A stretch of 64,000 bases of DNA from a gamma proteobacterium symbiont of Taylorina sp. (GCA_025655455.1 JAHXIV010000010.1:62001-126000); one strand, 5' to 3'. Counted from the stretch's first letter, positions 19,444 through 24,715 are shown. The notes: generated by a model from the letters alone, not told the origin. A program made the numbers and translations.

Positions 19444-20187
19444 TTATGAATTATTTGAACTAAATAAGTAGCCTGTTCCCCAAATCGTGCGGATATATTG
19501 TGGTTTTTTTGGTTCAATTTCTATTTTTTTTCTTAAACGGGTAACACGAATATCAATGCTGCGATCAAATGGAGAACGGTCATAACCTTTCATTAAATCC
19601 ATCAATTGATCCCGGCTTAAAACACGTTCCGCATGACTGACAAAAATATGCAAGAGACTAAATTCACCTGCTGTCAATGATACTTCCTGATCATGACAAT
19701 AAAGCCTATGATTATTAACATCCAGGGAATAAGAGCCAAATTGATAGATTTCATGCTGTATATCATTATCAGTTATATTTTTTGCTATTGTTTTACTTTC
19801 AGCTACATCATTTTCCACTGAATACTGTCTTCTAAGCACTGCACGAATTCGTGCCAGAAGCTCTCGCGGATTGAAAGGTTTAGCCAGGTAGTCATCAGCG
19901 CCCATTTCCAGGCCAATAATTTTTTCTACTTCATCACCTTTTGCAGATAAAATAATAATAGGTAATTCAGATATTGATCTTAATCTGCGGGCAATACTCA
20001 GCCCATCTTCACCGGGAAGCATTAAGTCCAATATTAATAAATCAACTGATTGAGCATTAAAAAAAACATCCATTTCTATTGCATCAGCAACAGTAAATAC
20101 TTCGTAGCCCTGTTCAGTCAAGTAGCGTTGAAGTAAATCCCGCAAGCCTTTATCATCATCTACAACTAATATTTTTATATTGTTCAT
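19444..20187 (-). CDS. OmpR family response regulator
   Basis: A 247-aa two-component regulator. The receiver has VVDDDKGLRDLL, acceptor Asp in LLILDLMLPGEDG, and LSAKGDE; the C-terminal winged helix ends in FDRSIDIRVTRLRKKIE and YIRTIWGTGYLF. The frame is open upstream to 20325, but the extra 46 residues are not regulator-like, so the ATG at 20187 (MNNIKILVVDDD) is taken. It is divergent from the secreted-protein genes starting at 20376 and probably pairs with the EnvZ-like kinase at 23257-24561. Confidence 0.93.
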   Translation of the reverse strand: MNNIKILVVDDDKGLRDLLQRYLTEQGYEVFTVADAIEMDVFFNAQSVDLLILDLMLPGEDGLSIARRLRSISELPIIILSAKGDEVEKIIGLEMGADDYLAKPFNPRELLARIRAVLRRQYSVENDVAESKTIAKNITDNDIQHEIYQFGSYSLDVNNHRLYCHDQEVSLTAGEFSLLHIFVSHAERVLSRDQLMDLMKGYDRSPFDRSIDIRVTRLRKKIEIEPKKPQYIRTIWGTGYLFSSNNS

Positions 20188-20252
20188 GCTCTCAATAGAA
20201 TCCGTATTAATTAATAATAGTATAGCAATAATTAAAACGTAAGGCATTTCTA

Positions 20253-20300
20253 TTTTGTAACATTGAGAATCAGTTATTGAAATAATTATGAAACATTTGT
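20253..20300. promoter_or_regulatory. Candidate OmpR-family binding sites in the divergent promoter region
   Basis: TTTTGTAACATT (20253-20264) and ATGAAACATTTGT (20288-20300) are about 32 bp, or three helical turns, apart between the divergent regulator and secreted-protein genes. OmpR-type regulators bind tandem GTAACA-like half sites. A related tandem pair lies at 21580-21600. The assignment is by motif resemblance only. Confidence 0.35.
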
Positions 20301-20375
20301 ATTGTATATTTACTGATACTAACAAGCTGAATAACTCAGTTAAATCTATTTTGAATGATAGGGAGGATATATAAT

Positions 20376-20651
20376 TTGTGCAATTTTGCTATTTTATTCA
20401 CCCTATTTTTTTATTTTCTTCCTGATGCATCGGCTTCTGATGCAGATTATAATGTTCCAGAAAGCTCCGCCTTATCAAAAAATAAAACACATTATGGTAT
20501 TGGTTATGAGCAGAGAATGAAAATATTAAATAATAAACGATCTTCTATAAAGCTTCAAAATCGTCCAGTAATACGAATACAAAAGCCTGAACATCCTGTT
20601 CGCCCTACTCGTCCTTATCGGCCACAGCGTCCTATCAGACCTGGTCATTAA
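20376..20651 (+). CDS. Small secreted Pro/Arg-rich protein, TTG start
   Basis: About 91 aa. The good ribosome site GGGAGG at 20361-20366 lies inside the longer ORF that would start at ATG 20355, so the TTG at 20376 is preferred; it gives a clean signal peptide (MCNFAILFTLFFYFLPDASA). The mature protein ends in a repeat of RP units (HPVRPTRPYRPQRPIRPGH) that is strongly basic. No family recognised. It is the first gene of the block enclosed by the OmpR/EnvZ-like pair and is followed 2 nt later by the beta-barrel gene. Confidence 0.6.
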   Translation: MCNFAILFTLFFYFLPDASASDADYNVPESSALSKNKTHYGIGYEQRMKILNNKRSSIKLQNRPVIRIQKPEHPVRPTRPYRPQRPIRPGH

Positions 20652-20653
20652 GT

Positions 20654-21574
20654 ATGGAAAATAAATATTGTAGTCATTTAATTCACATTGTTTCTACTTA
20701 TCTGTTATTGACAGCTACTCTATCTGCAGATGATAGTTTTAACAATATGAGTGTCAATAATGATATTCCCGTTATATCTGAACCTCAGACCAATAATACT
20801 TTGCTTATTACAGGAGTAGATTATAGTTCAGGCTCCTATGGATTAAAACATGATACAGATATGCTCTATATACCCTGGTTATTAAAATATAATCATGATA
20901 ACTGGAACCTGTCTCTCACATTTTCCTATATAAAAATAACCGGACCAGGAGGCGTTTTTGGTGGTGGTGACGGTGGGGTAATTCCTACAGGATCTGGCTC
21001 TTCCGATACTGCAGGATTTCAGCCCTTATCTGGTAATGGTAATGGTAATGGTAATGGTAATAATAAACCTGATAAAAATAAATTAACCACTAATGAAGGT
21101 TTGGGTGATGTATTATTCAACATTACCTATGCTGTTGATCTGGCATTAGAGTTACCTTTTCTATTGGAAGCAGGCACACAGATTAAAATACCTGTTGCAG
21201 ATGAAAAAAAAGAGCTGGGAACAGGTGAATTTGATTGGTCTATTTATCTGGATTTTGCTTATAACCTTGATTCATTTTCTCCTTTTATAACCTTAGGTTA
21301 TAAATTTATGGGAGATCCCGACAGCGTAAATCTTGAGAATATTTTTTATACCAGCATGGGAGTGGATTATGCACTTTCACAAAAGTTACATGCTGGAGTC
21401 ATCTATGATTATAAAGAAAAAGTTCTATCCCATAGTTACGAAATCAGCGAGTCAACCATTTATCTTAACTGGTCTGTCAAACAGGATTTATCACTTAATG
21501 CTTATCTTGTGAAAGGATTTTCTAACGGCAGTCCTGATTTGGCTTCAGGCTTACAATTTTCTTTTTTATTTTGA
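20654..21574 (+). CDS. Outer-membrane beta-barrel protein, transporter-like
   Basis: A 306-aa exported protein. After a signal peptide (to about residue 25) come alternating amphipathic strands such as WNLSLTFSYIKITG, DWSIYLDFAYNL, FSPFITLGYKFMG and ASGLQFSFLF with a terminal Phe, the usual end of an outer-membrane barrel. An extracellular-loop-like insert around residues 98-137 is Gly/Ser-rich and contains four to five Gly-Asn units encoded by a hexanucleotide tandem repeat. It resembles the phenol-degradation-type (MetA) outer-membrane channels; the substrate is unknown. Confidence 0.65.
   Translation: MENKYCSHLIHIVSTYLLLTATLSADDSFNNMSVNNDIPVISEPQTNNTLLITGVDYSSGSYGLKHDTDMLYIPWLLKYNHDNWNLSLTFSYIKITGPGGVFGGGDGGVIPTGSGSSDTAGFQPLSGNGNGNGNGNNKPDKNKLTTNEGLGDVLFNITYAVDLALELPFLLEAGTQIKIPVADEKKELGTGEFDWSIYLDFAYNLDSFSPFITLGYKFMGDPDSVNLENIFYTSMGVDYALSQKLHAGVIYDYKEKVLSHSYEISESTIYLNWSVKQDLSLNAYLVKGFSNGSPDLASGLQFSFLF
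21032..21061 (+). repeat. In-frame hexanucleotide repeat (GGTAAT)x5
   Basis: Five perfect GGTAAT units encode Gly-Asn repeats in the predicted outer-membrane barrel. The unit is a multiple of three, so copy-number change would lengthen or shorten a surface loop without breaking the frame. Confidence 0.8.
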
Positions 21575-21579
21575 AAAAA

Positions 21580-21600
21580 TGAAACAAATTGAAACAATTT
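21580..21600. promoter_or_regulatory. Tandem GAAACA direct repeats, candidate regulator site
   Basis: GAAACAAATT (21581-21590) and GAAACAATTT (21591-21600) are adjacent 10-bp direct repeats, a spacing typical of OmpR-family sites. They lie just after the barrel gene and about 170 bp upstream of the DUF2202 gene. Similar GAAACA/GTAACA sites lie at 20253-20300. Confidence 0.35.
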
Positions 21601-21644
21601 ATATGATGAATGAAATATAAAAAATACAATTGCCCTGTACCATT

Positions 21645-21666
21645 CTAAGTAACTTAAATTTTTCCA
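21645..21666. repeat. 22-bp exact repeat, copy 2
   Basis: Identical to 15132-15153, in the same orientation. It lies about 100 bp upstream of the DUF2202 gene in the 195-bp gap after the barrel gene. Confidence 0.5.
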
Positions 21667-21769
21667 TTACAGGATTAGATGAAGGTTCTTTAATAAATCA
21701 CCTAATGTTTCTGACATATCTTGATTTAAAAATCTACTTTGAGACAAATAACAGACAAGGATACTTATC

Positions 21770-22909
21770 ATGATTATCAATAATAAAATACTTTCACTGA
21801 TTATGATTTCAAGCCTGGCATTATCAGTGCCTCTTTATGCAATGCAGGGTCATGGTCAGGGAAATAACTCTGGTACAGGACAAGGTCCCGGCTCTCATGA
21901 GGAGCAGACTAATAGTTGTCAATTAGAACCTGACATCAGTAGTGAGATAAACCAGGAAGTTGAGTCACAACTGCAATTTATGGGCGAAGAGGAAAAACTG
22001 GCCAGAGATGTTTATGTTTATTTAAACACAGTTCAACCTCACAATGTCTTTGTTAATATAGCAAAAGCTGAGCAAATACATATTAACAGTGTAAATAGAT
22101 TTTTAGAGGCCTACGATATCCAAAATCTGGCATCTGATGACTATGGTATATTCACTAATCCTGAGTTACAACAATTATATGATGATTTAATTGCCATAGG
22201 AAGCAGCTCATTAGTTGAAGCCTTAATGGTGGGAGCCTTAATAGAAGAGGTTGATATAAAAGATTTAATCATCTCCATTGAACAAACTAACGATCAGTCT
22301 ATGATTCAAATGTATAGCAATCTTATGAGTGGGTCATATAACCATTTAAGAGCCTTTGTCGCTCAATTAGAAACACAGGGTGTTACTTATACCAACCAGG
22401 GTGTTCTATCACAACAACAAGTAGATGATATTTTAAATGGAGAGAACACCACTATAAAAACAAACACCGCCCAATCCCTCAATAGCAGCGGCACCACAAC
22501 AGCATCAGAAAGCTGCTTTATCAATAAGATGTCAAAAAATTCAAAAATAGTCACCAATAATACTCAATTTAGTGAAAACGATACCATTCAGCTATCATCA
22601 AAGATTAAAGTGAGTACTCAGGATCAGGGCAAAAATGCAAAATTGACAACAATTATTTCTTATACTTCAGAAGCAGGAGAATCCTTTTTAATTGTGAGAG
22701 ATAATCTATCCTGGAAGATGTGGGATGGCGACATCGCATCTCTCAGTTTTGCTGAACAAACAATTCTTGACAGCGAACAAAACCTGGATATTATTACTGG
22801 AAAACTAAATGGTTTAAGAGGAAATTATGCAGTGCTTGCAGGCTATATTCTTGAAGATGGAAGCATTGTTTATAGTGCTGATCTCATGTTCTTTAGTGTT
22901 CAGGAATAG
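21770..22909 (+). CDS. Secreted DUF2202 (ferritin-like) protein with C-terminal extension
   Basis: A 379-aa protein with signal peptide (to about residue 24), a short Gly/Gln/His-rich linker (MQGHGQGNNSGTGQGPGSHEE) and a DUF2202 domain (about 60-225). The domain has the helical di-metal-type motifs EEEKLARDVYVYL, AKAEQIHINSVNRFLEAYDI and a C-terminal SYNHLRAFV. A beta-rich C-terminal domain of about 130 residues follows (SENDTIQLSSKIKVSTQDQ to the end), which I do not recognise. DUF2202 proteins have a ferritin-like fold; the function is not established. Confidence 0.85.
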   Translation: MIINNKILSLIMISSLALSVPLYAMQGHGQGNNSGTGQGPGSHEEQTNSCQLEPDISSEINQEVESQLQFMGEEEKLARDVYVYLNTVQPHNVFVNIAKAEQIHINSVNRFLEAYDIQNLASDDYGIFTNPELQQLYDDLIAIGSSSLVEALMVGALIEEVDIKDLIISIEQTNDQSMIQMYSNLMSGSYNHLRAFVAQLETQGVTYTNQGVLSQQQVDDILNGENTTIKTNTAQSLNSSGTTTASESCFINKMSKNSKIVTNNTQFSENDTIQLSSKIKVSTQDQGKNAKLTTIISYTSEAGESFLIVRDNLSWKMWDGDIASLSFAEQTILDSEQNLDIITGKLNGLRGNYAVLAGYILEDGSIVYSADLMFFSVQE

Positions 22910-22932
22910 ACTTATAAATCTCCGATTATTAA

Positions 22933-23244
22933 GTGAAAACAATCATGTTAATTAATATAAAAAACTTATCTACTCTCACGCTTCTTGTTTTTATACTTTT
23001 TACAAAAACTATTAGCGCATCCGATTTAGACCTAAGTTATAATCCTGCAACACCTGAGTATTCACCAAATAGAAATATGGATACAGGCCAGTATTCAGAT
23101 GCATTTAGAAATATGGGAGCTGATGGTAAAAAAAATATGCTGGAATCAGATAAAAAAAATAAAAAGAAAGCAGAGAAGAAAGGTAAGGGAAATGGAAAAG
23201 GGAAAGGGAAAGGAAATGGTCAGGGAAAGGGAAGACATAATTAA
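22933..23244 (+). CDS. Small secreted Lys/Gly-rich protein
   Basis: A 103-aa protein with a signal peptide (LSTLTLLVFILFTKTISA). The last 35 residues are almost only Lys, Gly and Asn (KKAEKKGKGNGKGKGKGNGQ), so the mature protein is very basic. It starts at GTG 22933, or at ATG 22945 (MLINIKNL); neither has a clear ribosome site. It follows the DUF2202 gene by 23 nt and precedes the kinase by 12 nt. No family recognised. Confidence 0.6.
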   Translation: MKTIMLINIKNLSTLTLLVFILFTKTISASDLDLSYNPATPEYSPNRNMDTGQYSDAFRNMGADGKKNMLESDKKNKKKAEKKGKGNGKGKGKGNGQGKGRHN

Positions 23245-23256
23245 GGATCACAGTCG

Positions 23257-24561
23257 ATGATGCCTAAAACACTACTTTCAAGAACAGCTTTTACTATATC
23301 ATCACTGTTACTTATTTTTGTCCTACTAGCCAGCAGTGTCATTTTCTATTATATAATGACACCGATGGCACGTCAGTCAGCATCTCACTTAGCCGCATTG
23401 GTTAGTTTATCAGCACAAACCTGGGTAGAGCTGCCCCCGGAAACACGTCAGGATTTTGAGTCAGAGTTAAAAAAGCAGCACCATATTAGTTTGCATAGCC
23501 AAAAACAGGATTTTAAGCCCCTTTCCGTTAATACTCCTTTTTTTCGTTATTTTAAGGAAGAAGTTCAACATCTTTTAGGCAGAGGGGTTGAAGTATTAGA
23601 AGAATTAGACCCGGAATTCTGGATTTGGGTTAAAGTACCTATTGCATCAAGAACACTATATATTGGTTTTTCCCACAATATTATAGGTCCCAATCCATCA
23701 CTGGTACTATTTATTTTAATTGGTGCCGGTGCAATACTAGTCATTATCAGTTCCTTATTTTTAGTCTCTTATCTGGTACAGCCTATTAATAATTTATTAA
23801 TAGCCACCAGACAATTAGGACAGGGAATTTCACCTGACCCCATTGCTGAAACAGGGCCACGGGAATTCATTCATTTAACTCGTAGTTTTAATACTATGAA
23901 TACGCAGGTACAGGAATTATTACAAAACAGAACAGTTTTACTAGCTGGAATATCTCATGATTTGCGCACACCAATTGCAAGAATTCATTTATCATTAGCT
24001 ATGTTAAATGATCAACACGATCAATCTCTCATACAGGGGATTGAAAATGATTTGCAAGATATCAACCAATTAATTCAACGAACATTAGATTTTTCCAAAA
24101 GCCTGGACATTACCACTCAGCAATATCAGACCATTGAAATCAACAGCTATTTAAGGAAATATGTTCAATCACATCCTCATTCATCTTTGATTACTTTTAT
24201 GCCTGAAAACAAGGATTATCCAATATATTTATCTCCAGATGTATTAGAACGAATCCTCAATAACTTACTTGAAAATGCTCTGAATTATAGCCAGAACCAG
24301 ACAGTTGAAATACAAATCCATTGTGATCCTGACGAGTATCGTATTTATGTACTTGATCAAGGTTCCGGGATTCCAGATGATAAGTTAAATACGGTTTTTC
24401 AGCCTTTTTATCGACTTGAAGTATCACGAAATACAGAAACAGGGGGAAGCGGCTTGGGCTTGGCCATTGTACAACAATTGTGTCAAGCCCACGGCTGGAA
24501 AATACAATTAACAAACAGAAAAAAGCAGGGAATCAGAGCAATTTTAATATTACCTGTTTAG
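23257..24561 (+). CDS. EnvZ-like sensor histidine kinase
   Basis: A 434-aa membrane kinase. Two helices (about 13-33 and 150-172) flank a periplasmic domain of about 115 residues, followed by HAMP, HisKA with GISHDLRTPIARIHLS, and a HATPase domain with NNLLENALNYS, DQGSGIPDD and GGSGLGLAIV. It is the EnvZ class, the natural partner for the OmpR-family regulator at 19444-20187, from which it is separated by four secreted or envelope genes. What it senses is unknown; the products of the enclosed genes may be part of the stimulus or the response. Confidence 0.93.
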   Translation: MMPKTLLSRTAFTISSLLLIFVLLASSVIFYYIMTPMARQSASHLAALVSLSAQTWVELPPETRQDFESELKKQHHISLHSQKQDFKPLSVNTPFFRYFKEEVQHLLGRGVEVLEELDPEFWIWVKVPIASRTLYIGFSHNIIGPNPSLVLFILIGAGAILVIISSLFLVSYLVQPINNLLIATRQLGQGISPDPIAETGPREFIHLTRSFNTMNTQVQELLQNRTVLLAGISHDLRTPIARIHLSLAMLNDQHDQSLIQGIENDLQDINQLIQRTLDFSKSLDITTQQYQTIEINSYLRKYVQSHPHSSLITFMPENKDYPIYLSPDVLERILNNLLENALNYSQNQTVEIQIHCDPDEYRIYVLDQGSGIPDDKLNTVFQPFYRLEVSRNTETGGSGLGLAIVQQLCQAHGWKIQLTNRKKQGIRAILILPV

Positions 24562-24583
24562 AAATTTGAGACAAGGCAGAGGT

Positions 24584-24715
24584 ATGAGAGGTGGTCGTAA
24601 TATGCCGGAATTTAATGACTTCGATGGAAATAAAGATGGTTATATTAGCGAGCAGGGACTTAAGCTAGCGTCTAAGAAGTTTAATCCAACGCCAAACATT
24701 AAACAGACTGGATAA
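24584..24715 (+). pseudogene. EF-hand protein remnant
   Basis: An open frame of 43 codons directly after the kinase encodes RGGRNMPEFNDFDGNKDGY followed by ISEQGLKL. DGNKDGYISEQG is an EF-hand calcium loop with Asp and Asn at positions 1, 3 and 5, Gly at 6 and Ile at 8, but Gly instead of Glu or Asp at position 12. Secreted bacterial EF-hand proteins often have this RG-rich MPxFxDFDxNxDGxI layout with two or more loops. Only one loop remains before the frame runs into the antisense 3' end of the peptidase gene, so it looks like a truncated gene. Confidence 0.45.

Follow-up and report, generated by a model that had tools for sequence, protein, structure and literature searches.

The stretch analyzed here, called the window, comprises 64,000 nucleotides from the genome of a gamma proteobacterium symbiont of Taylorina sp. 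(GCA_025655455.1, JAHXIV010000010.1:62001-126000). Positions 19444-24561 of the window are spanned by six genes, which encode a response regulator (RR), read leftward, and, divergent from it and read rightward, an exported protein with an Arg-Pro tail (RP), an outer-membrane barrel, a DUF2202 protein, a second exported basic protein (KG) and a histidine kinase (HK). A preliminary description, made from the sequence alone, had noted that the two-component pair flanks the other four genes, and this gene set is borne out by Pfam matches and sequence comparison. We propose, with a probability of roughly 0.7, that the locus is the core of an autoregulated envelope-stress regulon of the OmpR/EnvZ family, in which the pair very probably activates the genes for these proteins, and for an efflux pump, via one conserved DNA site. 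The features are listed below in window coordinates.

19444-20187, minus strand: RR, OmpR-family response regulator, PF00072 (Response_reg) and PF00486 (Trans_reg_C), phospho-acceptor motif LILDLMLPGEDG intact
20278-20295, plus strand: weak, degenerate candidate regulator site in the RR/RP promoter, TGAAATA-N4-TGAAACA, 11-bp spacing
20355-20651, plus strand: RP, exported basic protein, GIGYEQRM motif and Arg-Pro repeat tail
20654-21574, plus strand: 12-strand outer-membrane barrel of the COG4313/FapF superfamily, PF13557 (Phenol_MetA_deg), GN repeats in a loop
21580-21601, plus strand: predicted regulator box TGAAACAAATTGAAACAATTTA, an exact conserved direct repeat
21770-22909, plus strand: exported DUF2202 ferritin-like protein with a C-terminal beta-sandwich, PF09968
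22430-22906, plus strand: the C-terminal beta-sandwich domain of the DUF2202 protein, AlphaFold2 (AF2) pLDDT 92.5
22933-23244, plus strand: KG, MGAxGKxNM family, basic, low-complexity and exported, start codon GTG at 22933 or ATG at 22945
23257-24561, plus strand: HK, EnvZ-like histidine kinase with HisKA, HATPase_c and HAMP domains, H-box GISHDLRTPIAR intact
24569-24688, plus strand: decayed EF-hand gene fragment

DUF2202, KG and HK appear to be transcribed as a unit; simple scans for promoters and terminators gave hits at chance level only. The mature RP and KG proteins are strongly basic (pI about 10.8 and about 9.8, respectively) and matched no Pfam family, while the barrel and DUF2202 proteins are acidic (about 4.3).

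The GAAACA-type repeats noticed earlier in both promoter regions are part of a conserved direct repeat, TGAAACA-N3-TGAAACA-ATTT, hereafter the box. In front of DUF2202-KG-HK the repeat is exact (TGAAACA-N3-TGAAACA at 21580-21596), while that at 20256-20295 is degenerate, with a TGTAACA element followed by the 11-bp-spaced pair listed above; the 11-bp arrangement, GAAATA..GAAACATTTGT, again occupies the interval between RP and RR in G018 (here, G numbers denote genomes, the window's own being G000, and f1, f10, f84, f127 and f128 are GTDB families). An exact TGAAACA-N3-TGAAACA is located upstream of RR in 12 loci (families f1, f10, f84 and f128) and is in every case oriented toward the divergent gene; in many genomes the direct repeat separates the regulator gene from a small-protein gene that diverges from it. 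The ATTT flank on the 3' side, which is outside the search pattern, is conserved in 17 of 22 sites at each position. Of the two places where binding of the regulator had been suggested, 21580-21600 is a strongly supported candidate from this comparative footprinting and 20253-20300 a weakly supported one. A literature search found no text on a TGAAACA response-regulator site.

In further sub-groups of this two-component family, the TGAAACA repeat is replaced by TGTAACA-N3-TGTAACA. Such boxes are seen in several members of a sister sub-group (L042, L043, L081, L083, L105 and L113), the genes of which are divergent from those for an outer-membrane protein, a DUF2892-like protein and a small protein with a heme motif; judged from the sequences, this sub-group is a second, parallel regulon. 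Covariation between the RR recognition helix and the half-site type (GAAACA or GTAACA) is suggestive, but not clean.

Exact boxes number 25 in 57 genomes, compared to 2 for the reversed pattern, and 20-21 of the 25 precede a gene of a restricted set: KG (8), RND pump (6), DUF2202 (3), and one each of RP-barrel, a beta-propeller protein, RR and a small exported protein (G000:C64). The remaining boxes are found inside or behind unrelated genes. A weight matrix gave 36 matches with a score of >=17 against 0 in reversed sequence (1.04 Mb), most of the 36 being training sites. The box is present in 12 of the 13 genomes that harbor a close kinase and in 3 of 44 others (p = 8e-9); in the one box-less kinase genome, G010, the contig is cut inside the DUF2202 gene, and G006, one of the three boxed genomes without a close kinase, has a close RR. 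The window's genome itself has three exact sites, namely that at 21580, one before an RND adaptor-pump pair, where it is in reverse orientation (G000:C11:45372), and one before a gene for a small exported Gly/His/Tyr-rich protein (G000:C64:9676), a relative of which is found in G006 in a gene pair with a one-mismatch site. Apart from this gene in G006, a one-mismatch scan of four genomes gave no clear new targets, the matches being mostly within genes. Two paralogous integrase genes of G011 contain an exact TGAAACA-N3-TGAAACA (L118 4544, L119 681); these copies are probably a chance occurrence shared by descent.

For a held-out test, the weight matrix was trained without any DUF2202 promoter. 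In kinase-bearing genomes a score of >=17 was found before 6 of 10 DUF2202 operons (those of the window, G018, G011, G032, G285 and G154), while in genomes without the kinase none of 12 operons reached this score, the best being 7.1 (Fisher p = 0.003). The boxed operons of G011 and G032 are unlinked to the two-component genes, and they are therefore evidence for shared control rather than shared neighborhood.

The neighborhood is also conserved. An RR-HK pair together with RP-barrel is found in G000 and G018 (f1), G032 and G285 (f10) and G149 (f127), i.e., in three GTDB families, and DUF2202 adjoins the RR-HK set in G000, G010, G018 and G285 and is located about 5 kb away in G154. The arrangement varies: in G010, from the same genus, the order DUF2202-KG-kinase is kept; in G018, from another genus, RR-HK is divergent from barrel and RP, with DUF2202 next and convergent; in G285, from another family, HK-RR is followed by RP, barrel, a small protein of a type referred to as PEER and DUF2202; in G032, by RP, barrel and then the PEER protein; and in G149, from the third family, by EF-hand, RP, barrel and a cytochrome. 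Among 369 genomes of the class, co-occurrence with the kinase is above expectation both for DUF2202 (p = 0.003) and for the barrel (p = 0.0004), neither value being corrected for relatedness. The DUF2202 protein as query against genome contigs gave one locus only.

The preliminary description had suggested an envelope response, and had made this depend on conservation of the neighborhood and on co-regulation with the pair. The former is present in other genomes and families, the latter is supported computationally by box placement and the held-out test, and together this neighborhood and promoter evidence argues for an envelope response. The response was, however, wrongly called self-contained, as the predicted regulon also takes in an unlinked RND pump and other exported proteins. 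A chance neighborhood was considered separately and rejected on the basis of the recurring gene set, the excess of boxes and the held-out DUF2202 promoter test.

The two-component pair has the EnvZ/OmpR layout, with an OmpR-type receiver and winged helix in RR and HAMP, HisKA and HATPase in HK, and by sequence it is of the same family, without being filed as an orthologue. RR scores 295 bits against the NCBIfam OmpR model (equivalog cutoff 331) and HK 246 bits over residues 1-434 against the EnvZ model (cutoff 415); the periplasmic part of HK gives a weak match to a RisS periplasmic domain. A kinase search on plasmids gave matches to the cytoplasmic part only. Given the full-length similarity to EnvZ and OmpR, and because no second close EnvZ-like kinase was found in the window's genome, the pair could be the organism's EnvZ/OmpR osmoregulator, the enclosed genes being incidental or horizontally acquired cargo. 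Both proteins fall under the equivalog cutoffs, however, and other families as well as unlinked operons show this cargo and box again, which makes an osmoregulator with passenger genes improbable.

The DUF2202 domain matches PF09968 with 160 bits (4.5e-47, above cutoff) and has a solved relative, MJ0754 (3q4o; 1e-34). The ferritin-like ligand motifs E / ExxH / E / H are conserved, with EEEKLARDVY, AEQIH, IEEVDI and NHLRAF all kept. A search of the open literature found no paper mentioning DUF2202 and likewise no text on MJ0754. In the window and G010 proteins a C-terminal beta-sandwich is added, a domain shared with nine or more large G055 proteins of up to 2222 aa and with one 826-aa protein of the window's genome. 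It is an unnamed domain (window 22430-22906; L007, L009 and L011-L018), and a fold search gave no close solved fold, only weak Ig-like matches.

The surroundings of DUF2202 in other lineages also bear on the signal. A PEER-type small protein precedes DUF2202 in G032, G285 and a betaproteobacterial plasmid, that of Ideonella dechloratans, where a Met-rich, exported member (L162 6483-6875) is located directly upstream of an unannotated DUF2202 gene, the frame of which is broken by a stop. The DUF2202 gene adjoins a TonB-dependent copper receptor gene in G032 and G285 (TIGR01778, above cutoff), with a box at that of G032; behind the boxed DUF2202 operon of G154 comes a gene for a multicopper oxidase similar to CueO (246.9 bits, under the model's cutoff of 525); and small proteins in the G032, G285 and G154 loci carry GMGM/RPDHxxM repeats. 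These observations are consistent with a response to copper or a related metal, in which the kinase would sense periplasmic copper, and DUF2202, the Met-rich small proteins and the pump would detoxify or hold it. The window's own genes, however, include neither receptor nor oxidase and lack the Met-repeat features. NCBIfam scores do not place RR with the CopR/CusR regulators, and the RND pump obtains a better score as a pump of the multidrug (HAE-1) type than of the CusA/CzcA type. As the signal, copper or another thiophilic metal is our leading guess, but a tentative one; given that the pump is closer to multidrug than to metal pumps, an envelope stress of organic or cationic nature is equally plausible.

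Other genes of the locus recur with the pair as well. The KG family is defined by the MGAxGKxNM motif and a Gly/Gln/Lys/Arg-rich tail, and a profile search gave matches in ten genomes. All eight strong matches adjoin this RR-HK pair or its RR, as do the window and G010 copies, i.e., KG homologues adjoin the pair wherever the contig shows the place. The EF-hand remnant noticed earlier behind the kinase gene is confirmed: it shares 77% identity with a segment of an EF-hand protein encoded elsewhere in the genome (G000:C13), is truncated, and has G as loop ligand 12 where its relatives have E. Full-length relatives are present at other places in this genome and in the genus. Because the set of G149 has an intact EF-hand gene at the divergent promoter of the same system (L096), the window's fragment is plausibly what is left of a member of this set.

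The barrel matches PF13557 with 30.4 bits (cutoff 22; 5e-7), and its AF2 model is a 12-strand barrel. The GN stretch SGNGNGNGNGNNK is coded by GGTAAT repeats; in-frame length variation of this hexanucleotide tandem repeat (window 21037-21066) would alter the length of the barrel loop. The closest solved protein by sequence profile is FapF (1e-8), which also provides the top Foldseek matches (1e-12). RP relatives with a G[IMV]GYExR motif and an RP tail adjoin the barrel in L031, L039, L050 and L096, and at least four RP dipeptides within the last 60 residues are found in 9 of 14 upstream barrel neighbors compared to 2 of 988 other genes (p = 4e-17, uncorrected for relatedness). It is the Arg-Pro tail that recurs, while the N-terminal parts of the tailed partners differ (DUF5666, the GYE family and others), and the barrels with a tailed partner are scattered over a deep barrel tree. 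We regard the association of barrel and tail as real. Exported proteins with Arg-Pro or Glu-Arg-Pro tails are also encoded directly upstream of COG4313-like barrels in L097, L099, L100, L102 and L106, which lack two-component genes.

This recurrence of the tail, its independence of the N-terminal part, the scatter over the tree and the similarity to FapF, which exports amyloid subunits (PMC5557850), would fit a dedicated export or assembly pair, in which a FapF-like channel carries the basic, low-complexity protein or proteins out to the surface of the cell, and the regulon serves to build a protective layer there. We regard this as doubtful, since the barrel model is fitted equally well by the COG4313 channel 4rl8 (VIA-align Z 25.3, compared to 23.9 for FapF), a member of a family proposed to take up hydrophobic molecules (PMC4493636), and since the N-terminal periplasmic coiled coil of FapF, needed for FapC secretion (PMC5557850), is absent from the window barrel, where about 22 residues, modeled at low confidence, separate the signal peptide region from the first strand. 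In addition, none of five distant barrels on sphingomonad plasmids has an Arg-Pro-tailed partner beside it, with one of the five (L157) having an exported neighbor with Arg/Ala repeats, and no FapD C39 peptidase or FapA, FapB, FapC or FapE was found among the locus genes. Slightly less probable still is the more specific proposal that barrel and tailed partner are a previously unrecognised two-gene outer-membrane export/assembly module, with the tail as channel recognition signal, placed here under a dedicated envelope-stress regulon together with a periplasmic ferritin-like protein.

Returning to the envelope-stress regulon itself, several observations weigh against it. The RP-barrel promoter of the window has only the degenerate site, DUF2202 is patchy and absent from most genomes of the genus, and the DUF2202 genes G018:C210 and G285:C175 have no box despite a kinase in the genome, as is the case also in G155 and G253. 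The box is reversed at two of the RND pump loci. The link to copper comes from DUF2202 neighbors in other lineages, and the small proteins of the window are not Met- or His-rich. Furthermore, the p-values given above partly ignore shared ancestry and are too optimistic, as related sequences are non-independent. A safer argument than these p-values is that the gene set and the site recur across several families; these, as well as the conservation and placement of the box, are read directly from the sequences.

From these data we infer binding by RR, activation, the nature of the signal and the functions of the proteins as follows. The kinase would respond to a disturbance of the inner membrane or periplasm by phosphorylating the regulator, which would bind the direct repeats of the box. 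The regulator would then turn on DUF2202-KG-HK, such that the kinase reinforces its own supply, probably also RP-barrel through the weaker divergent site, and, at other loci, the RND efflux pump and the small exported Gly/His/Tyr-rich protein. DUF2202, with its ferritin-like metal site intact, may act in the periplasm by binding or oxidizing a metal or a reactive species, the exported basic proteins may coat or buffer the envelope or surface, and the RND pump would expel the agent. On this model a number of unnamed families (DUF2202, MGAxGKxNM/KG, GYE/RP, the PEER-type small proteins and the COG4313 barrels) are predicted to belong to a single regulon whose DNA site is defined, and their function is thereby open to direct test. 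The Arg-Pro tail beside COG4313/FapF barrels may also hint at what many widespread "transporter" barrels carry.

An envelope regulon of the OmpR/EnvZ family is of a known kind, while its target set here is undescribed. The pair shares with this family, which includes RisSA and AmgRS, the domain layout, full-length similarity of the kinase, the winged-helix regulator and direct-repeat sites spaced by about 10 bp, and AmgRS likewise controls an RND pump, mexAB-oprM (PMC6173428). It differs from the family in the scores under the equivalog cutoffs, in a predicted regulon centered on DUF2202, KG/RP low-complexity exported proteins and a COG4313-like barrel, and in that the kinase gene ends a target operon, apart from the regulator gene. 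With the COG4313 channels (Pput2725, PDB 4rl8; SphA, TcpY) the barrel shares 12 strands, superimposable over 230 residues, and PF13557, but at 10% identity, and it is paired with an Arg-Pro-tailed exported protein and a two-component system. FapF of the Pseudomonas functional amyloid system, the best solved profile match, is also encoded beside low-complexity exported proteins; in contrast to FapF, the window barrel has no N-terminal coiled coil, and no FapA-E genes or C39 peptidase are seen beside it. The DUF2202 protein, finally, shares with MJ0754 the ferritin-like domain and its conserved ligand motifs, and it differs from MJ0754 in being bacterial and exported and, as in G010, in carrying the extra beta-sandwich.

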